From positions 1 through 64,000 of the forward strand of contig NZ_SCOH01000019.1 of NCBI RefSeq assembly GCF_005503445.1: a stretch of DNA of 64,000 bases. Direction: 5' to 3'. The notes beneath the pieces are model-generated. The model made no database searches. It had not been told where the DNA came from and saw nothing but the letters and a program-made list of their open reading frames with translations. Source of the stretch: Chitinivorax sp. B (GTDB lineage: Bacteria > Pseudomonadota > Gammaproteobacteria > Burkholderiales > SCOH01). Numbering within the stretch: the first letter of the stretch is position 1; the number at the start of each line of letters is the position of its first letter. Below, piece after piece: positions 3,388 through 50,458 of this stretch. The position numbers and the translations under genes were made by a program.

Positions 3388-4812
3388 TCAAGTTGAAGAT
3401 ACCATCATGCCCTTGATCAATTCACCCAAAGTAGCCAAGCCCATCTCCTGCTGCTCAGTGAAAGGATGACCATAATTCAGCCGGATAAAATGTCGAAACT
3501 CGCGTTTCGCAGAAAAGATGGGCCCTGGTGCAATGCTGATCCCCTTGCTCAGCGCCAGACGATGCAATGCAACAGCATCGACCATGACAGGCAGCTCGAT
3601 CCACAAAAAATACCCGCCCTGCGGCTTAGTCAGCCGGGTACCTTCCGGAAAATAACGTGCAATGGCATCACTGGTCATTGCCAACTGGGTCGCCAATGCG
3701 CGGCGTAAACGGCGCAAATGGGGTTCATAACCACCATATTTCAGGAAATCGGCCAACGCCACTTGAGGCGGAATACTGGATGCCAACGTTGTCATGAACT
3801 GTAACCGCTGTACTGCTTGGCTGTAACGCCCCGCCGCCACCCAACCGACACGATAGCCGGGCGCCACAGACTTGGAAAACGACGCGCAATGCATCACCAA
3901 ACCTTTCTCATCATAGGATTTGGTCTGGCGAGGTGGCTGGCGGTCAAAATACAATTCACCATAAACATCATCCTCAATCAGTGGCACTTCATGACGGGCC
4001 AACAAGTCCACCAACGCTTGCTTTTTGCAGTCTGGCATCAAGCTGCCCAGCGGGTTCTGAAAATTGGTCATGAACCAGCATACTTTGATCGGATGAGTCA
4101 GCAAGGCCTGCGACAATGCCACCAAATCCACCCCTTCATCAGGATGGGTTGGAATTTCAATAGCCTTCAACCGTAAACGCTCAATCGCCTGCAAACAGGC
4201 ATAAAATGTCGGGGACTCAATCGCAACCAAGTCACCTGGCTGGGTCACGGCCTGCAAGCAAAGCGTCAATGCCTCCAATGCCCCCGCTGTCACTACGATT
4301 TCACTGACCGGTACATTGGCACCTGCCGCCAGATAACGCAAAGCAATCTGCCGGCGTAATTCATCGTTCCCGGGTGGCAAGTTGGTGACCGCACTCCAAG
4401 GGTCGATCCGTCGCATGGCGGTAGTTAGCGACCGGGACAGGCGCTCATGTGGAAATAGCCACGGGCTTGGAAAAGCCGAACCAAGCGGTACTGCCGAGCG
4501 GCTTCGGGTTGCTTCCAGAATATCGAATACGAAATCGCTGACATCCAGCTCAACCGATTGCTGAGTTGGACGCGTCATTTCAGGTACCGCCATCCGCTTG
4601 ACCAACCGAGCACGCACGTAATAGCCAGACTGAGGCCGAGCAGCCACCCAGCCCTGGCTTTCCAGCAGTTGATAGGCTTGCATCACAGTCAAAGGATTGA
4701 CCTGATGCGAACGGCTGGCACTGCGAATCGATGGAATACGATCACCTGGCCGTAACACGCCCTGATTGATCAACGTGATCACGCCCTCGGCAATTTCCTC
4801 ATATCGTGTCAT
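3388..4812 (-). CDS. MocR/PdxR-type GntR regulator with aminotransferase domain
   Basis: This 474-residue protein is a fusion. Residues 1-70 are a GntR winged helix (YEEIAEGVITLINQGVLRPG, then IPSIRSASRSHQVNPLTVMQAYQLLESQGW). Residues about 100-470 are a fold-type I aminotransferase, with the PLP lysine in ASFSKSVAPGYRVGW near residue 313 and the YPEG and FIRLNYG end motifs. MocR proteins are PLP-sensing transcription factors rather than catabolic aminotransferases, and usually control PLP, GABA or amino-acid genes beside them. No obvious divergent target is present, since the upstream 450 bp lead to a dead transposase. The regulon cannot be inferred. Confidence 0.85.
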   Translation of the reverse strand: MTRYEEIAEGVITLINQGVLRPGDRIPSIRSASRSHQVNPLTVMQAYQLLESQGWVAARPQSGYYVRARLVKRMAVPEMTRPTQQSVELDVSDFVFDILEATRSRSAVPLGSAFPSPWLFPHERLSRSLTTAMRRIDPWSAVTNLPPGNDELRRQIALRYLAAGANVPVSEIVVTAGALEALTLCLQAVTQPGDLVAIESPTFYACLQAIERLRLKAIEIPTHPDEGVDLVALSQALLTHPIKVCWFMTNFQNPLGSLMPDCKKQALVDLLARHEVPLIEDDVYGELYFDRQPPRQTKSYDEKGLVMHCASFSKSVAPGYRVGWVAAGRYSQAVQRLQFMTTLASSIPPQVALADFLKYGGYEPHLRRLRRALATQLAMTSDAIARYFPEGTRLTKPQGGYFLWIELPVMVDAVALHRLALSKGISIAPGPIFSAKREFRHFIRLNYGHPFTEQQEMGLATLGELIKGMMVSST

Positions 4813-5247
4813 GGGAACTTCTTATTTGCTTCAGAGTACAAGCATGTGTGATGGGCCATTCATCATGGCAGGCAAGGCCTCGAAGGCATTCAATCCTTGA
4901 TGGCCAAGTAATGTTCATTGACGGATGCGGAATCAAAAAAATACAATTAAAACAATGCACATACACTAATTATCGTCAGCCAACATCCGGCTAGATTCTT
5001 TTAAAGCCGGTCGATAGTTGGGGTAGAAAAAGGGGTATACACTGCCCCCTTATACTTGATTCCCGACTTACAGACATGTCCTTGACACATCTAGCTATCG
5101 AAAAAGCGCTTCCTCACGACAAATCCTACAAACTCTCGCATTGCCACGGTATCCCGTCCACATGACCGGTGTGCATTTTTAACTCGCCAGTCGCGACTTT
5201 TTTGCGAAACAGCGGCAGGATTTGCTGCTGACATGGCTACTTGCCCG
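4813..5247. other. Intergenic, no gene recognised
   Basis: About 435 bases upstream of the MocR regulator. The region is AT-rich at 4920-5060 and probably holds the regulator's promoter, but I see no confident -35/-10 pair or coding frame. Confidence 0.4.
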
Positions 5248-18503: not shown

Positions 18504-19004
18504 TCAATCCTTGATAGCCAGCTCCAGTCCTTCCTTCACTTCCTCCATCACCACATAGCTGCGTGACTCGGTCGCGCCGGGCAAGCGCAACAAGATATCG
18601 CCCAGCAATTTGCGATACAGCGACATATCGGCAATACGGGCCTTGATGAGGTAGTCAAAGTCACCAGAAACCAGATGACACTCCATGATCTCAGGTAGTT
18701 TGAGCACCTCACGCCGGAAAGCCTCGAAGATTTCGTCCGACTTGCTGGATAGGCGCAGCTCGACAAACACCAACAAGGAGGCCCCCATTGATATCGGGTT
18801 AAGCCGTGCGTAGTACCCCATGATCACGCCATCACGTTCCAGACGCTTGACGCGTTCGCTGCATGGGGTTGTTGACAATCCAACACGTTCAGCCAGATCA
18901 GTCATCGGAATGCGCCCTTCCTTTTGCAGGATTCGCAGAATTTTTCGATCGGTTCGATCCAATGCTTTGGGATTCACAGCAGTATTTTTCATTTTTTCTT
19001 GCAC
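18504..19004 (-). CDS. lrp: Leucine-responsive regulator Lrp (DadR-like)
   Basis: This 166-residue Lrp/AsnC protein has an N-terminal helix-turn-helix (DRKILRILQKEGRIPMTDLA, STTPCSERVKRLERDGVI) and a C-terminal RAM domain containing ECHLVSGDFDYLIKARIADM and LLRLPGATESRSYVVMEEVK, close to E. coli Lrp. The start may be GTG 19004 (GAAGG five bases upstream) or ATG 18992. It is divergent from dadA, and in Pseudomonas and related bacteria an Lrp-type DadR activates dadAX in response to alanine. Local control of dadAX is therefore likely. The 120-base divergent region is AT-rich, as Lrp sites usually are. Confidence 0.88.
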   Translation of the reverse strand: MQEKMKNTAVNPKALDRTDRKILRILQKEGRIPMTDLAERVGLSTTPCSERVKRLERDGVIMGYYARLNPISMGASLLVFVELRLSSKSDEIFEAFRREVLKLPEIMECHLVSGDFDYLIKARIADMSLYRKLLGDILLRLPGATESRSYVVMEEVKEGLELAIKD

Positions 19005-44078: not shown

Positions 44079-44558
44079 ATGATGAGTAAGACCACTCTCG
44101 ATAACTATGATCTACAACTCCTTACCCTACTTCAGGAAAATGGGCGGCTAACCCAGTATGAACTTGCTCAGCACGTGGCTTTATCGCCATCTGCCTGCTA
44201 TCGCCGTGTTCAGCGCTTACGCGAACTTGAGGTGATTCAACGAGATGTTGTCTTGATCAATCCGGATGAGGTTGGTCAGAAAATGCGCATGGTGCTCCAA
44301 GTTAGTCTTGCACATGAGCAAACTCACTTGCAGCAGCACTTTCACCGCGTCGTTCGCGAATCCCCGGAGGTACTGGAATGCTATAACGTTACTGGCAGCG
44401 CCGACTACGTATTGATTGTCAGCGTGCCAGACATGGCTGCCTTCAACATTTTTTCGCAGCGTGTATTGCTCTCCAACGCCAACATCCGTGAATTTGAGAC
44501 AATGGTGGTGATCAGCACCATCAAATACTCCACGACCATTCCCATTGCGCAAACCTGA
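44079..44558 (+). CDS. Lrp/AsnC-family transcriptional regulator
   Basis: This 159-residue protein has an N-terminal helix-turn-helix (LQLLTLLQENGRLTQYELA, LSPSACYRRVQRLRELEVI) and a RAM domain with LECYNVTGSADYVLIVSVPD. It is more divergent from E. coli Lrp than the copy at 18504. Two in-frame ATG codons (44079, 44082) are adjacent. It runs tail-to-tail with the four-gene operon ending at 44565, with 6 bases between. Lrp-family proteins sense amino acids, so control of that operon is plausible but not shown. Confidence 0.88.
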   Translation: MMSKTTLDNYDLQLLTLLQENGRLTQYELAQHVALSPSACYRRVQRLRELEVIQRDVVLINPDEVGQKMRMVLQVSLAHEQTHLQQHFHRVVRESPEVLECYNVTGSADYVLIVSVPDMAAFNIFSQRVLLSNANIREFETMVVISTIKYSTTIPIAQT

Positions 44559-44564
44559 CGTGAG

Positions 44565-45221
44565 CTAGGCAACGTCAAATTTAGCATGCAGCCGGTTCGC
44601 CAAATCCAGCTCGACGACATCCCCTGACTGCAATCGGCCAACGCCTTCAGGTGTCCCAGTAAAAATCAGATCACCTGGGCTTAGTGAAAATACCGTACTG
44701 AGATAGGCAATCAGATAAGAAATGTTGAACAGCATCAGCCGCGTATCACCTTGCTGTTTGATTTCGCCGTTCTGACGCATCCGGAATTGACAATGACCCG
44801 GATCGGGCAGCTCAGCTGCTGGCAAAAAATGAGAAACACAGGCTGCCCCGTCAAAACCTTTAGCCAGGGTCCATGGAAGCCCTTTCGCTTTGGCTTGTGA
44901 TTGGATATCCCGCGCCGTGAGATCCAGGCCAATGCCATATCCCGCAATGTGCGCCAAAGCATCATCAGGTGCAATATGCTTACCACCCTTGCCAATCAAC
45001 AGCACCAGTTCCGTTTCATAGTGTACATCTGCCGAAAAGGTTGGCAACACGATAGATTCGCCATCTGAATTGATTGCCGAAGTCGGCTTCAAAAATACCA
45101 GTGGCTTTTCTTCGATCTGGTTTCCCAGCTCTGCGGCATGTGCCGCATAGTTACGACCGATACAGAAGATGTTGGCTACCACAACCGCCTGACCATCATG
45201 TTGCATATAGACTTGTTTCAT
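44565..45221 (-). CDS. Fumarylacetoacetase-family hydrolase (acylpyruvase type)
   Basis: This 218-residue protein has the FAH fold: IFCIGRNYAAHAAELGNQ, KPTSAIN, the metal-binding YETELVLLIGK, GIGLDLTARDIQSQAKAKG, the AKGFDGAACVSHFLP lysine region and IFTGTPEGVGRLQSGD. Small single-domain members hydrolyse acylpyruvates (2,4-diketo acids) or related compounds with Mg2+. It is the last gene of an operon with an amino-acid-dioxygenase-like protein. Cleavage of a 2,4-dioxo acid derived from an oxidised amino acid would fit, by inference. Confidence 0.87.
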   Translation of the reverse strand: MKQVYMQHDGQAVVVANIFCIGRNYAAHAAELGNQIEEKPLVFLKPTSAINSDGESIVLPTFSADVHYETELVLLIGKGGKHIAPDDALAHIAGYGIGLDLTARDIQSQAKAKGLPWTLAKGFDGAACVSHFLPAAELPDPGHCQFRMRQNGEIKQQGDTRLMLFNISYLIAYLSTVFSLSPGDLIFTGTPEGVGRLQSGDVVELDLANRLHAKFDVA

Positions 45222-45236
45222 TACGCCCCCTTTTTA

Positions 45237-45272
45237 CATCCAGAACTGGCCAATACAGGCCCGTTCTGGATG
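45237..45272 (-). other. Intercistronic hairpin
   Basis: CATCCAGAAC (45237-45246) and GTTCTGGATG (45263-45272) are exact inverse complements. On the minus-strand transcript the hairpin is followed by TAAAAAGGGGG and the ATG of the hydrolase, not by a T-run, so an mRNA-stability or translation element fits better than a terminator. Confidence 0.45.
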
Positions 45273-45285
45273 ATCATTGACACAA

Positions 45286-46281
45286 TCAACCAGCTTTCAC
45301 ACCGTTGACAATGTTCTGCAGTCGCTGATGTTGCAACGCCAACCACACGGTTCCCAACGCATCACGACGCATGTCCACGTATGCAGCATCCGAGTGGTAG
45401 GCATTGTGCGGGTTGATGACCAATCGCTCATGCAACCAGGGAGCACGTTCACGCCATGCGGCGATCAACGGATGGTCACTCGGCGGCTCTTGTGGCAATA
45501 CGTCCAATGATGCACGGAAATATGGATTGGCCTGCATGTGCTCATACAGATCATCCAGGGAACGCAGAATCTTGCCGCGTGCAGTATTCACCAGAATGCC
45601 ATCTGACCGCATGGCAGCCAGGAAACGTTGATCAATCAATCCTGTCGTTTCCGGGGTCAATGGGCAATGTAGCGAAACCACGTCGCAAGCTGATAACAGC
45701 TCGTCCAATTGTGACACACGTTGTACACCCAGCACTTTTTCCGTACCAGCCGGTACCACCGGATCATATGCCATTACCTGGAAACCCAGGGCTCGAAGAC
45801 GCAACGCAGTAGCTGCACCAATCCGGCCGATACCAACCAGGCCAACTTTGCAGGCACGGGAACGCAGGGACCGTAACGAATTCTCCTGCCAGGTTTTGCC
45901 ATAACTACGCGCCAATGCATCATGCCTGCCAATATTGCGGGTCATCGACAGAATCATGGCAACGGCACTATCTGCCACCTCTTCCGTACAATAGGAAGGA
46001 TTGTTTGCAAAAGGGATACCACGACGCGCCAGAGCATCCCCATCCACCTGGTCATATCCAACACCATAACGCACGACGATTCGGCATTTCCTCAAGCGGC
46101 TGGCAGTGCAGTCGGTGAGCTTGGCGTGCCATACCAATAAGGCATCCACTTCGGCCAGATCCTGCTCGTTGAAGTCATATTCGTTCAGCGAATTGAAGAA
46201 GCGGAAGGTCATGCCATTTTCTTCAAATTCCTGCTCGATCGGGCCCAGGCTGGTAATTCTGTCTGTAATTCCAATAATCAT
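45286..46281 (-). CDS. D-isomer-specific 2-hydroxyacid dehydrogenase (CtBP-like)
   Basis: This 331-residue enzyme has an NAD Rossmann motif GLVGIGRIGAATALRLRALG. Catalytic residues are visible: Arg in NTARGKIL, Glu in LDVLPQEPP and His in INPHNAYHS. YGVGYDQVDGDALARRGI and FANNPSYCTEEVADSAVAMI place it near the C-terminal-binding-protein branch. It would interconvert a 2-oxo acid and a D-2-hydroxy acid. It follows the permease by 18 bases. Its substrate is presumably the carbon skeleton handled by the operon. Confidence 0.88.
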   Translation of the reverse strand: MIIGITDRITSLGPIEQEFEENGMTFRFFNSLNEYDFNEQDLAEVDALLVWHAKLTDCTASRLRKCRIVVRYGVGYDQVDGDALARRGIPFANNPSYCTEEVADSAVAMILSMTRNIGRHDALARSYGKTWQENSLRSLRSRACKVGLVGIGRIGAATALRLRALGFQVMAYDPVVPAGTEKVLGVQRVSQLDELLSACDVVSLHCPLTPETTGLIDQRFLAAMRSDGILVNTARGKILRSLDDLYEHMQANPYFRASLDVLPQEPPSDHPLIAAWRERAPWLHERLVINPHNAYHSDAAYVDMRRDALGTVWLALQHQRLQNIVNGVKAG

Positions 46282-46299
46282 TTCTGTCTTTCAACACAC

Positions 46300-47301
46300 T
46301 TAATTCGATATGACCCGTAGCCGGCTATTGGCCAGCAACCGACTATTGACCAACACCGGGAGCAACATCAATGCACCGCCGAGTAGAAAAGCCGCGGCCA
46401 CAGCCAATAACAGGCGCCCCAGCAATACACCGCTCCAATGCGCACCCAAGGCCATCATCAGTAGCGTCTCTTCGATCAAACCATGTGCCAACCCCATGAA
46501 TGTCATGGTGACAAGAATGTCACGACGGGTGAATGCACGCTGTTTCAGCTCGTTCATCATCAATGCCCCACCGTATGAAATCCCGGCAATCATTCCAATT
46601 ACATTGAAACTGGTGGTTTTCTGATCAGTCTTTAACAATGCATTCAATGGCCACATAACGTACTCCAGCAGCACATCAACCCGCAGCAGACGCAGTATTT
46701 TCATCAGCAGAATCAATGCCAGCACGATGAAATAGATCATGAACAGATTACGTACCTCACCCAATGCCCAGTCAGCCCATCCTGTTGCCGGCCCTTGCGC
46801 TGACAATGCAGGCAACGGTGCAATTGTCTGAAACAAGCCAAGCGACGCGTAGACCTTGGTCAACACCCAACCGGTCACGATTGCTCCGAAGAAGCGCAAG
46901 CAGCCCATATACATCACACGAATGCCAACCAGCTGGGTTACTCGCAACTCCATTGGAAAGGAGTGAGCGACCAGCACCATGGTCATCAGTACTGTTACCT
47001 GCGATACAGTTAATTGCAGATCGCCGGCATGTGACAAAAACACCAGAAAGGCAGAATACAGGTTGCCAACCAGTGCCGATGCCCACACGATGCCAGCTTC
47101 GGGCGGCAGCCCAACCCAAGTCATAAAGGGACTGAGCCCCTGATTGATCCAGACATTCAGACCCATCAAGTGAAATATCCGCACCAAAATCACAACAGGG
47201 ACCGTGATTTTGATCAGTGGCAAGCTAGCCGACCAAGCCTCTTTCAGCAATGCATACGTGGCAGCACGCCAATCCAATCCGCTTCTGTTCATCTCATTCA
47301 T
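46300..47301 (-). CDS. Nucleoside-recognition (Gate) domain membrane protein
   Basis: This 333-residue protein has about eight to ten hydrophobic helices. Two Gate-like halves are seen (ITVPVVILVRIFHLMGLNVW, SALVGNLYSAFLVFLSHAGD; GMIAGISYGGALMMNELKQ, TFMGLAHGLIEETLLMMAL). Gate proteins are thought to transport nucleosides or other small molecules; many are uncharacterised. It overlaps the dioxygenase gene by 8 bases, so import or export of that enzyme's substrate or product is a reasonable guess. Confidence 0.8.
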   Translation of the reverse strand: MNEMNRSGLDWRAATYALLKEAWSASLPLIKITVPVVILVRIFHLMGLNVWINQGLSPFMTWVGLPPEAGIVWASALVGNLYSAFLVFLSHAGDLQLTVSQVTVLMTMVLVAHSFPMELRVTQLVGIRVMYMGCLRFFGAIVTGWVLTKVYASLGLFQTIAPLPALSAQGPATGWADWALGEVRNLFMIYFIVLALILLMKILRLLRVDVLLEYVMWPLNALLKTDQKTTSFNVIGMIAGISYGGALMMNELKQRAFTRRDILVTMTFMGLAHGLIEETLLMMALGAHWSGVLLGRLLLAVAAAFLLGGALMLLPVLVNSRLLANSRLRVISN

Positions 47302-48040
47302 CCAACAGGTTGTAATCGATCACCATAACGTCACGGTAACCCGCCTTTTCAGGTGATACTGGTAAAACCGGAGTCACTGCATGCATCACAACTTCGTCCG
47401 CCATCAAGATGCTGTCCATCGGTTTCTCCAAGGTCACTTCCGCGATTTCCCGTTTATCGTTGCTATAAATCTTCGATACCCCACCCATTACCGCTTCCCT
47501 GGCTATTAAGTGCATGCTGATAAACTTGTGCCCATCACGATGAATACCTTCTGGTGTTGGCAGCCCACTTTGTTGTGATGACGCCAAAATACGGAATTGA
47601 TGAACAGTGATATCCCATCTCCTGGAAGTCACACTAAATGTTTGCCTTAAATGATCAAGGCTAGTATCGATTACATATTGCAGAAATCTATTTCTATAGG
47701 TCAAATCATGCATCGGTTCAAATACTCGATTAATACCACCAGCATAGGTATTAATATTTTTACCTTGGAAAAAGGTATTATTCTCAGACCGCTGCAGACT
47801 ACCTGTCGCTTCATCCAGTACAAACCGTCCAAATCTACGCTGCCGAAAGGTCGCACCACCTTGCATGTATGGGTCAACAGGCAGATCATCCCAAGTTCTT
47901 GCCAAGGCTTGCCAGTGTCGAATTACTGATGACGGGATCAGCCATTCATTGTGTTTGATGATTTGAAATCCATTGGCTTGAAGTGATTCCTGCCCGTCAT
48001 CAAAATTAATTACATTGACATCCAGATTTGTTGTTCTCAT
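47294..48040 (-). CDS. 2OG-Fe(II) dioxygenase, amino-acid hydroxylase (IDO-like) family
   Basis: This 248-residue protein matches the PF10014 family, which includes bacterial L-isoleucine 4-hydroxylase and related free amino-acid hydroxylases. Candidate ligands are HRD in TPEGIHRDGHKFISMHL, the late His in EVVMHAVTPV and the 2-oxoglutarate Arg in GYRDVMVIDYN. GGATFRQRRFGRFVLDE near the N-terminus is also typical. It is the first gene of the operon with a permease, dehydrogenase and FAH-type hydrolase. The exact amino acid and position hydroxylated are not readable from sequence. Confidence 0.85.
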   Translation of the reverse strand: MRTTNLDVNVINFDDGQESLQANGFQIIKHNEWLIPSSVIRHWQALARTWDDLPVDPYMQGGATFRQRRFGRFVLDEATGSLQRSENNTFFQGKNINTYAGGINRVFEPMHDLTYRNRFLQYVIDTSLDHLRQTFSVTSRRWDITVHQFRILASSQQSGLPTPEGIHRDGHKFISMHLIAREAVMGGVSKIYSNDKREIAEVTLEKPMDSILMADEVVMHAVTPVLPVSPEKAGYRDVMVIDYNLLDE

Positions 48041-48460
48041 TCGCTTCTCCCATATTCTTCATAGCCTCCAGCCTTTCTTCCTGATTGAAGCGCCATTTCC
48101 ATATTGATCAATATGAATTAGCTTTTATTTAACAGGGAATTTTCTAATTATTTATAACGATTTTCGCCTATTCGAATTCAATTTTTATCATAAAAAGCGG
48201 CATATTTTCTTATTTCAGGATTCTTGAGGATGGGAAACGCATGAATTTTTATCGACATGCCAACAGCAAGCGAAATGCATAATGCGCTAGTGCAAAAGTA
48301 GTTATTAATAAGCAGTCAGTAGGCGGATGTAGCTGAAGGGAAGGCAGGAGACTGCAGGTGAGACGAAAACGTTACTCAAACCGTGGAGAGCAAGTGTGCT
48401 GATTGTCAGCGAAATCAGACAACTGGAATGATTCTGATCGGGAGTGGTTAACCTGTGCTA
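48041..48460. other. Intergenic, AT-rich, no gene
   Basis: 420 bases upstream of the dioxygenase operon. The first 170 bases are strongly AT-rich and probably hold its promoter. I see no coding frame. Confidence 0.5.
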
Positions 48461-48573
48461 AGAGCCGCTAACAAAACCCTTCTGGTGTTGTTGTGCAAAC
48501 TCGTCGTACGCTCGTACTGCCTTTGTTTGCGCGCCTAACCAGAACCACTTCGCTGGGTTTTGTTAGCGGCTCT
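48461..48573. mobile_element. 113-bp palindromic MITE-like element
   Basis: The ends AGAGCCGCTAACAAAACCC (48461-48479) and its exact complement (48555-48573) form 19-bp terminal inverted repeats. The inner sequence is also partly palindromic (TTCTGGT ... ACCAGAA, GCAAAC ... GTTTGC), so the whole could fold into one long hairpin. There is no coding capacity. Flanks read CTA on the left and AAG on the right, so a target duplication is not clear. It lies 82 bases downstream of the leuA stop. Confidence 0.6.
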
Positions 48574-48655
48574 AAGTCAGGTAATTGGAAGAAACGTTAG
48601 CGGAAATTAACATAGCAAGAATGGGCGAACCAGGTCCGCCCCCCTCGTTCATTCT

Positions 48656-50458
48656 TTAGACCAGTGGCTGGGCGCGCACTTTTTCGGCCTTGTTGACCAG
48701 TTTGTTCAATGCCGACAAATACGCTTTGGCAGAAGCGGCAATGATGTCTGTGTCTGCCCCTTGGCCGTTGACGATGCGGCCGTCTCGAGCCAACCGCACT
48801 GTCACCTCGCCTTGGCTGTCAGTACCACTGGTGATCGCGTTGACCGAATACAATTGTAATTCGGCATGGCTTTCCACCAGCGCTTCGATTGCCTTGAAAG
48901 TGGCATCCACCGGGCCGGAACCCGTGGCCTTGCTACGTTTCTCATGTCCGTGATCAACGAACACGATTTCGGCGACGGGCTGTTCTCCTGTCTCCGTATG
49001 AGTCGCGAGCGAGACGAACTTGTAGTCCTCCTGCTCATGGGTAATCAGCTCGTCGCTGACCAGCGCGTGCAAGTCTTCGTCAAAGATCTCGCTCTTCTTG
49101 TCGGCGAGTTCCTTGAAGCGGGCGAAGGCGGCATTCAATGCCTCTTCGCTTTCCAATTCAATACCAAGCTCTTTCAGGCGTGTACGGAACGCATTCCGGC
49201 CGGAGAGCTTGCCTAATGTCAGTTTGTTGGCGTGCCAGCCCACATCTTCGGCACGCATGATTTCGTAGGTTTCGCGGTGCTTGAGCACACCGTCCTGATG
49301 GATGCCGGATTCATGGGCAAATGCGTTAGCCCCGACAATCGCCTTGTTCGGTTGAACCGGATAACCCGTAATGGTGGACACCAATTTGGATGTCGGGACA
49401 ATCTGCGTCGTGTCGATCCGGGTATCCAGATTGAATAGGTCACGGCGGGTCCTCACCGCCATCACGATCTCTTCCAGGCTGGCATTACCAGCGCGTTCAC
49501 CCAAACCATTGATGGTACATTCCACCTGTCGACAGCCTGCCTGCACGCCGGCCAGCGAATTCGCAACCGCCATCCCCAAATCGTTATGGCAATGTGTCGA
49601 CCAGATCACCTTGTCAGCGCCTTTAACTCGCTCAATCAACGTCTTCAAGCGGTCGTACCAAACCGCAGGGATACTGTATCCCACGGTATCTGGGACGTTG
49701 ATGGTCTTGGCGCCAGCCTCAATCACCGCTTCGAACACACGTACCAGAAAATCCGGCTCAGAGCGAACTGCATCCTCGGCAGAGAATTCGACGTCCTCGG
49801 TGTATTCCAAGGCAATCTTCACTGCTTTGACTGCGGCATCGACCACTTGATCTTCACTCATCCGCAGCTTGTTCTTCATGTGGATGGGGCTAGTGGCGAT
49901 AAAAGTATGGATACGGCCCGACTTGGCTGGGCGAATCGCTTCACCAGCACGGCGGACATCATTCTCGTTGGCACGGGCCAATGAACAGACTGTCGAATCC
50001 TTGACGATTTCGGCAATCGCCCTGACCGCTTCAAAGTCACCCGGGCTGGCGGCAGCAAAACCCGCCTCAATCACGTCTACTCCTAGCCGTTCCAGCTGGC
50101 GCGCAATGCGGATTTTCTCTTCCTTGGTCATCGATGCGCCGGGGCTTTGTTCCCCATCACGCAAGGTGGTGTCGAAAATAAACAAGCGATCAGTCATGGT
50201 CGGCGTACTCCAGCTGAAGGTGGGATGAGCCATCGCACCAGATTGGACAGAATAATCATGAATATTGAAAGGTCGGCCGATTGCCTGGGCAAGGGCAGCC
50301 AGCTTGGTGATCTGGGCCGACGGAATACTGCCTCGCTCCCGCCATTTATAGATGGCGGCTCGCGATAAAGGGTCATCAGGGAAAATGCGATTGAAGTCTT
50401 CGGCCAGCTTGGAGGGACCGCCAAAGTCGGCGATTAGACGTTCAATGTCGAATGACAT
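48656..50458 (-). CDS. leuA: 2-isopropylmalate synthase with N-terminal helix-turn-helix extension
   Basis: The frame encodes 600 residues, about 87 more than usual. Residues 1-70 look like a Cro/CI-type helix-turn-helix ([38 protein letters not shown]). Canonical LeuA begins at Met88 ([20 protein letters not shown]), with the metal-binding [24 protein letters not shown] and a C-terminal LeuA regulatory dimer domain from about 450. It condenses acetyl-CoA with 2-oxoisovalerate, the first step of leucine synthesis. ATG 50458 has a consensus promoter upstream. An internal start at 50197 with GGAG ten bases ahead could also give a 513-residue form. Confidence 0.9.

Follow-up and report, generated by a model that had tools for sequence, protein, structure and literature searches.

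The described systems closest to the locus presented here centre on PF10014 Fe(II)/2-oxoglutarate dioxygenases. The comparison draws on PMC3684760, PMC13336071, PMC10764440, PMC10825186, PMC12176266, PMC10180240 and PMC6336799. IDO is a hydroxylase of aliphatic amino acids. HrmJ and BelL cyclise the free amino acid 6-nitronorleucine, and TqaL forms an aziridine from valine. The clusters of HrmJ (hormaomycin) and BelL (belactosin) carry a heme-oxygenase-like partner (the lysine N-oxygenase BelK/HrmI) together with peptide assembly genes. The IDO operon of Bacillus thuringiensis and the Hil operon of Pantoea combine a PF10014 hydroxylase with a dehydrogenase and an exporter, and their reductase oxidises the 4-hydroxyl of 4-hydroxyisoleucine (PMC3684760). 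Here, we describe a four-gene cassette from Chitinivorax sp. B that places a PF10014 enzyme next to a CtBP-type dehydrogenase and a FAHD1-type hydrolase. It occupies positions 44565-48040, on the minus strand, of the window, which is the whole stretch of 64,000 nucleotides analysed (contig NZ_SCOH01000019.1, positions 1 to 64,000).

The cassette resembles the IDO and Hil operons in joining a PF10014 enzyme to a dehydrogenase and a putative transporter. However, its dehydrogenase is of the D-2-hydroxyacid type, and it includes a FAH gene, which the available text on the IDO and Hil operons does not mention (PMC3684760). With HrmJ (PDB 9dqp, 9dqq and 9dqr) and BelL (8jms) the cassette dioxygenase has family and fold in common, but neither the heme-oxygenase-like partner nor peptide assembly genes occur among the genes tested in the cassette region. 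The non-phosphorylative diketo-hydrolase routes for sugar acids likewise proceed by oxidation to a 2,4-dioxo acid and FAH-type cleavage; their 4-oxo group is introduced by a dehydrogenase, whereas the cassette has a dioxygenase (PMC6336799). The association of PF10014 with a dehydrogenase and an exporter was known already. Its combination with a CtBP-type dehydrogenase and a FAHD1-type hydrolase was not found in a search of open-licence papers, which gave either no paper or papers on single enzymes, besides PMC6336799, taken here as a precedent. The cassette suggests an undescribed way to modify and export, or break down, an amino acid.

Architecture of the cassette

Four open reading frames (ORFs) lie head to tail as a compact operon: a PF10014 dioxygenase (47294-48040, 248 aa), a Gate-like (PF07670) multi-spanning membrane protein (46300-47301, 333 aa), a D-2-hydroxyacid dehydrogenase of the CtBP/PGDH type (45286-46281, 331 aa) and a FAHD1-type FAH hydrolase (44565-45221, 218 aa). 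The first two ORFs overlap by 8 bp, and gaps of 18 bp and 64 bp precede the dehydrogenase and FAH genes, respectively. A four-gene operon had been proposed in an earlier sequence-only reading of this stretch, and the contiguous minus-strand ORFs bear it out. The same reading had called a PF10014 dioxygenase with an HRD...H motif, a D-2-hydroxyacid dehydrogenase and a small FAH-family enzyme. Pfam scores and catalytic residues confirm all three calls. The dioxygenase scores 206.3 bits against the PF10014 profile (cut-off 23.1) and carries H167-R-D169...H220, the dehydrogenase scores 147.6 bits against 2-Hacid_dh_C, and the FAH protein scores 198.8 bits against FAA_hydrolase.

Linkage of the enzyme trio in other genomes

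When 84,980 species, each represented by one genome, were scanned with exact patterns derived from the peptides, a method that detects close relatives only, a single relative was found, in Acinetobacter halotolerans. There, the dioxygenase, dehydrogenase, FAH and exporter genes are contiguous, in that order. The exporter is of the LysE type (PF01810, 114 bits) and stands in place of the Gate-like permease. This second contiguous occurrence of the three enzymes speaks for more than a chance grouping. Identity to the window proteins is 48% over residues 16-245 (45% overall) for the dioxygenase, 56% for the dehydrogenase and 46% for the FAH protein. The dioxygenases and dehydrogenases of the two cassettes are the mutual closest relatives found; for the dehydrogenase, the 56% compares with about 50% for its plasmid-borne relatives.

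No further dioxygenase of this subfamily emerged from whole-genome searches. Within the order, 81 of 399 genomes contain a match at E <= 0.001 (its own included), the others at no more than 38% identity among the matches listed. No genome among 369 of the class has a match at E <= 1e-45 besides the window's own, and 10 of 398 genomes of the phylum reach E 1e-34 (again including its own), the others at 31-38% identity. The A. halotolerans dioxygenase is matched in 10 of 149 Acinetobacter genomes, itself included, with the others at 28-37%. Plasmids yielded matches to the dioxygenase in 51 of 72,556 records, none of which reaches 60% identity; the 40 that were listed go no higher than 38%. A search of 50,697 phage records found none.

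Gene neighbourhoods were compared at 44 other PF10014 loci, which came from 28 of the 80 order-level genomes with a match, from all seven genomes that the phylum list added, from five of nine additional Acinetobacter genomes and from 4 of the 51 plasmid records. None had a FAH match (0/44; E 1e-4; flanks of 8 kb, or 10 kb for one locus), and a general PF10014-FAH linkage was rejected. A weak dehydrogenase match (22-29% identity) lay 2-6 kb away in four of the loci. A LysE gene stood directly beside the dioxygenase in three, all within the five further Acinetobacter loci. Flanks of up to 1.5 kb at 29 order-level PF10014 loci, partly from the same genomes, contained none of the other cassette genes, and two annotated Streptomyces PF10014 loci had no FAH match, unlike the cassette. 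Among the loci examined, the enzyme trio is therefore confined to a rare subfamily, and the pairing with LysE recurs in other Acinetobacter. The neighbourhood comparison that had been suggested as a check on the operon gave a divided answer: the linkage of the three enzymes recurs in one distant genome, but with the permease replaced by LysE, and it is absent from the 44 loci elsewhere. As a separate observation, a Streptomyces lavendulae plasmid (L092:9977-13647) carries a PF10014 gene followed directly by both subunits of a 2-oxoacid:ferredoxin oxidoreductase.

The three enzymes

The cassette dioxygenase is the only PF10014 match in the whole genome. Its metal ligands H167, D169 and H220, and R236, which would bind 2-oxoglutarate, are invariant in all 42 rows of an alignment that includes the window enzyme. 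Its highest-scoring sequence in the PDB comes from Streptomyces and bears the deposited name HrmJ (9dqp, 162.6 bits). The predicted structure (predicted local distance difference test score, pLDDT, 92) matches a BsmA homologue, IDO, HrmJ, 8w8h, BelL and TqaL at Z 23-27, with HrmJ 9dqp at 26.4 and the next row at 14.6. Against the HilB equivalog model of NCBIfam the enzyme scores 51.8 bits, below the cut-off of 350. Sequence comparison and the modelled fold together place the dioxygenase with the free-amino-acid enzymes HrmJ, IDO, BelL and TqaL.

Three residues set the cassette enzymes apart. T145, H171 and K172 are confined, among the 42 rows, to the window and A. halotolerans enzymes; other rows have E at position 145 (35 rows), V at 171 (37 rows) and D at 172 (38 rows). 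These differences come from an alignment without coordinates, and K172 and T145 are not claimed as proof of an altered substrate.

The closest solved structures to the dehydrogenase are CtBP and phosphoglycerate dehydrogenase. Within its NAD-binding fold, the glycine motif (GxGxxG) and R235, E265 and H292, which we take to be the Arg-Glu-His catalytic triad of D-2-hydroxyacid dehydrogenases, are invariant in five alignment rows. Relatives at 47-50% identity occur on Azospirillum and Rhizobium plasmids, and several are annotated 'C-terminal binding protein'. All four of the plasmid loci examined place them in other gene settings.

The FAH protein has FAHD1 as its best PDB match (192.8 bits). 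It shows the FAHD1-type features, namely a His-x-x-Glu lid pair, an ExE + Asp metal site (presumably E69, E71 and D100), a Gln and a Lys. Both cassette versions, as well as two further aligned copies, retain all the residues concerned (H28, E31, E69, E71, D100, Q107 and K121). The protein scores 189.9 bits against the NCBIfam equivalog PRK10691, which we take to be E. coli YcgM, and so falls below the cut-off of 201. It is up to 68% identical to rows from its own order and 64% identical to a second FAH copy in the host (contig C34). YcgM is described as an oxaloacetate tautomerase of central metabolism, whereas the cassette protein is an extra copy inside an accessory operon. The His-Glu pair has been described in those FAH enzymes that break a C-C bond in 2,4-dioxo acids (PMC6336799). 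Taken together, the PF10014 grouping, the His-x-x-Glu pair of the FAH protein and the Arg-Glu-His residues of the dehydrogenase make up a linked enzyme set that fits the kind of chemistry proposed in the sequence-only reading.

The membrane protein

That reading had also named the second gene a Gate permease, a call that stands in part: the protein itself misses the Pfam cut-off, but four relatives at 27-38% identity pass it and back the family. One of these, from Halomonas, reaches 47.3 bits at 38% identity. By sequence, the protein is probably a permease or exporter. A transporter gene is present in both cassettes, although from different families.

Gate relatives were matched in 10 plasmid records, of which four loci were examined. 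On the Ponticoccus, Vibrio and Halomonas plasmids the gene lies divergently beside an Lrp/AsnC gene (3/4 loci); the exception, from Nitratireductor, has no adjoining Lrp. The Halomonas relative also has a LysE gene alongside. A FAH gene lies near the Ponticoccus one, whose neighbours (FAH, SDR, UxaA and Lrp genes) resemble a diketo-hydrolase cluster. A literature search on Gate, Lrp and export combined found nothing.

Boundaries and origin of the cassette

In a sister species the order leuA, lrp, nadD is kept and the cassette is absent at the locus (identities to the window proteins of 93.5% for LeuA and 78% for Lrp). The extra segment in the window spans about 4.06 kb (~44560-48620). No match to the dioxygenase turned up in the other four genomes of the family, the whole genome of the sister among them. 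Two genomes alone cannot separate a gain here from a loss in the sister. For the dioxygenase gene, GC content is 0.435 and third-position GC content (GC3) is 0.41, compared with GC3 values of 0.49-0.63 in the eight neighbouring genes measured; the other three cassette genes (0.48-0.61) are not unusual. A horizontal gain is favoured because the dioxygenase GC3 is low and its only close relative found is in Acinetobacter, with none among the 399 genomes of the order. On this sequence evidence the cassette is probably a rare accessory operon gained horizontally.

Upstream, leuA (48656-50458) was rejected as an operon member, being a conserved neighbour in the sister with a terminator-like hairpin of its own (48623-48641, minus strand, directly 3' of leuA). 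A similar hairpin was seen by eye in the sister. Because this hairpin follows leuA, the cassette is probably its own transcription unit; no sigma-70-type promoter was picked up on the operon strand ahead of it. The gap between leuA and the dioxygenase gene also holds one copy of a 119-bp repeat resembling a miniature inverted-repeat transposable element (48458-48576, with 22-nt inverted ends), which is not supported as part of the cassette. At least 47 matches to it occur in the genome, this copy included, at least 40 of them at E <= 1.5e-15; the count is a lower bound, as 40 of 61 candidates were scored. The LeuA protein itself is extended at its N terminus by a segment that scores 69.2 bits (cut-off 38) against NF046037, the carph-isopro domain model.

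Downstream lies an Lrp/AsnC regulator gene on the plus strand (44079-44558). The sequence-only reading had it facing the operon; it does adjoin the cassette, but the two are convergent and tail to tail, their stop codons (44558 for Lrp, 44565 for FAH) lying 6 bp apart. The sister keeps lrp between leuA and nadD without a cassette, and Lrp is not accepted as a cassette member. A part for it in the system, such as the amino-acid sensing suggested earlier, is not supported, although Lrp may regulate the neighbouring cassette. A second Lrp-like ORF lies elsewhere in the window (18504-18992, minus strand) and is 29% identical to the first.

Proposed function and alternatives

We tentatively favour a reading, which we hold at somewhat less than even confidence, in which a free amino acid is altered by the cassette, the product is carried through the membrane and deaminated by-products are cleared. 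With Fe(II), O2 and 2-oxoglutarate, the PF10014 enzyme would carry out an oxidation at a mid-chain carbon, perhaps C4, of an amino acid. The permease (Gate-like here, LysE in A. halotolerans) would then export the oxidised amino acid. The cell's ordinary transaminases may remove the amino group from part of the product and yield 2-oxo or 2,4-dioxo acids. On chemical grounds, a 4-oxo amino acid such as 2-amino-3-methyl-4-ketopentanoate (AMKP), known from the IDO operon, would yield an acylpyruvate-like acid by transamination. The CtBP-type dehydrogenase could convert 2-oxo acids into their 2-hydroxy forms and back, and the FAHD1-type hydrolase could cleave the acylpyruvate-like acid or ketonise its enol. 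Outward rather than inward transport is favoured on three grounds: a LysE-type gene closes the A. halotolerans operon, Acinetobacter relatives have one, and the IDO and Hil operons include exporters. The specific 4-hydroxylation put forward in the sequence-only reading finds no support as to position, and the best PDB match of the dioxygenase is named as a ring-forming enzyme.

Several observations weigh against this proposal. The membrane protein scores 22.8 bits against Gate, below the Pfam gathering cut-off of 29.6, and both its putative substrate and the outward movement are what we infer. The association of the trio rests on one independent comparison and on only two loci. Of the residues that mark the two dioxygenases, H171 is found also in PDB 9dq0, a protein deposited as HrmJ that lies outside the 42-row alignment. 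The FAH gene need not be pathway-specific, because the FAHD-type enzymes tested are oxaloacetate tautomerases: every unmutated FAHD enzyme purified had this activity (PMC10825186). In tree analyses, 0 of 200 bootstrap trees unite the two cassette FAH genes, the A. halotolerans copy forming a long branch, although a single clade of both is not rejected by an approximately unbiased (AU) test on 38 of the 57 tree rows (p = 0.07). The sequences do not clearly place the two FAH genes in a single lineage; if each cassette had recruited this FAH type on its own, the functional link would be stronger. Finally, the A. halotolerans cassette is flanked by a greB-like gene on one side and, on the other, by a divergent gene for a dicarboxylate/glutamate-type symporter (3765-5195 of locus L002; 0.8 kb from the dioxygenase gene and below model cut-offs), beyond which lie genes for a LysR-type protein and, 3.4 kb from the dioxygenase gene, for an aspartate ammonia-lyase; these three neighbours together occupy L002:1162-5195.

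The symporter and ammonia-lyase genes could mean uptake and breakdown, as in the catabolic route first proposed for the window. There, hydroxylation or oxidation at C4 and deamination would give a 2,4-dioxo acid that the FAH enzyme cleaves to a carboxylic acid and a pyruvate-type acid, and the permease would import the substrate. The enzyme classes fit. The window FAH protein has the His-Glu pair described from bacterial sugar-acid routes, in which FAH enzymes bearing it split 2,4-dioxo acids (PMC6336799), and on the Ponticoccus plasmid the Gate relative has FAH, SDR, UxaA and Lrp genes for neighbours. However, profiles detected no aminotransferase among the window genes at 41.6-51.3 kb or in the 11 ORFs listed for the A. 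halotolerans locus, neither operon has a gene to oxidise a C4 alcohol among the genes profile-tested, and the A. halotolerans operon ends in an exporter. We consider this route less favoured than modification and export and less likely than not, but it is a serious rival that follows closely.

A formulation that spans amino and 2-hydroxy acids, an undescribed acylpyruvate route started by an oxygenase, can be drawn from the same enzymes, and we regard it as doubtful. In this scheme, PF10014 would oxidise C4 of either kind of acid to the ketone level, the dehydrogenase would act at C2, and cleavage of the resulting 2,4-dioxo acid by the FAHD1-type enzyme would release a carboxylic acid together with a pyruvate-type acid. 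A single transferable cassette would hold the whole route along with its own transporter.

The four genes may also have no pathway in common, forming a cluster of independently useful functions: an amino-acid hydroxylase, an exporter, a general keto-acid reductase and an oxaloacetate tautomerase. Consistent with this, the cassette FAH protein resembles the other copy in the host (64%), FAHD enzymes are described as general tautomerases (PMC10825186), and the other PF10014 loci examined lack these partners. Nonetheless, such a cluster is unlikely, since the dioxygenase, dehydrogenase and FAH genes are linked, closely spaced or overlapping, in two genomes that are only distantly related.

A substrate that is a 2-hydroxy acid from the outset would need no enzyme beyond those in the operons: the dioxygenase would oxidise C4 twice to a ketone, the dehydrogenase would oxidise the 2-hydroxyl, and the FAH enzyme would cleave the acylpyruvate, so that three enzymes suffice. 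T145 and K172 of the cassette dioxygenases, which replace the E and D found in most of the 42 rows, could reflect such a change. However, the characterised relatives covered act on free amino acids. The IDO residues described as binding the substrate amino and carboxyl groups (S153, P155, Y143 and R227) do not map onto positions 145 or 172, counting from the metal His, and the change need not concern the amine. A 2-hydroxy acid substrate is thus a quite unlikely explanation.

Least probable is ring formation in the manner of HrmJ, BelL or TqaL, by which the cassette would make a cyclopropane or aziridine amino acid: 9dqp is the best match of the dioxygenase in PDB sequences and among its top structural matches, but that protein is known here by its deposit name and not by its own activity, members of the same family such as IDO only hydroxylate, and no BelK/HrmI-type oxygenase, ligase or non-ribosomal peptide synthetase (NRPS) was found among the genes profile-tested at 41.6-51.3 kb of the window or at the A. 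halotolerans locus, the rest of the window and genome not having been searched.

Implications

If the proposed function is correct, the cassette would provide a pathway context for PF10014 enzymes, met here as in vitro hydroxylases or as enzymes of antibiotic clusters. A bacterial dehydrogenase of the CtBP type and an accessory enzyme of the FAHD1 type would also gain a testable substrate. As a small, self-contained unit, the cassette could reveal a new amino-acid derivative.

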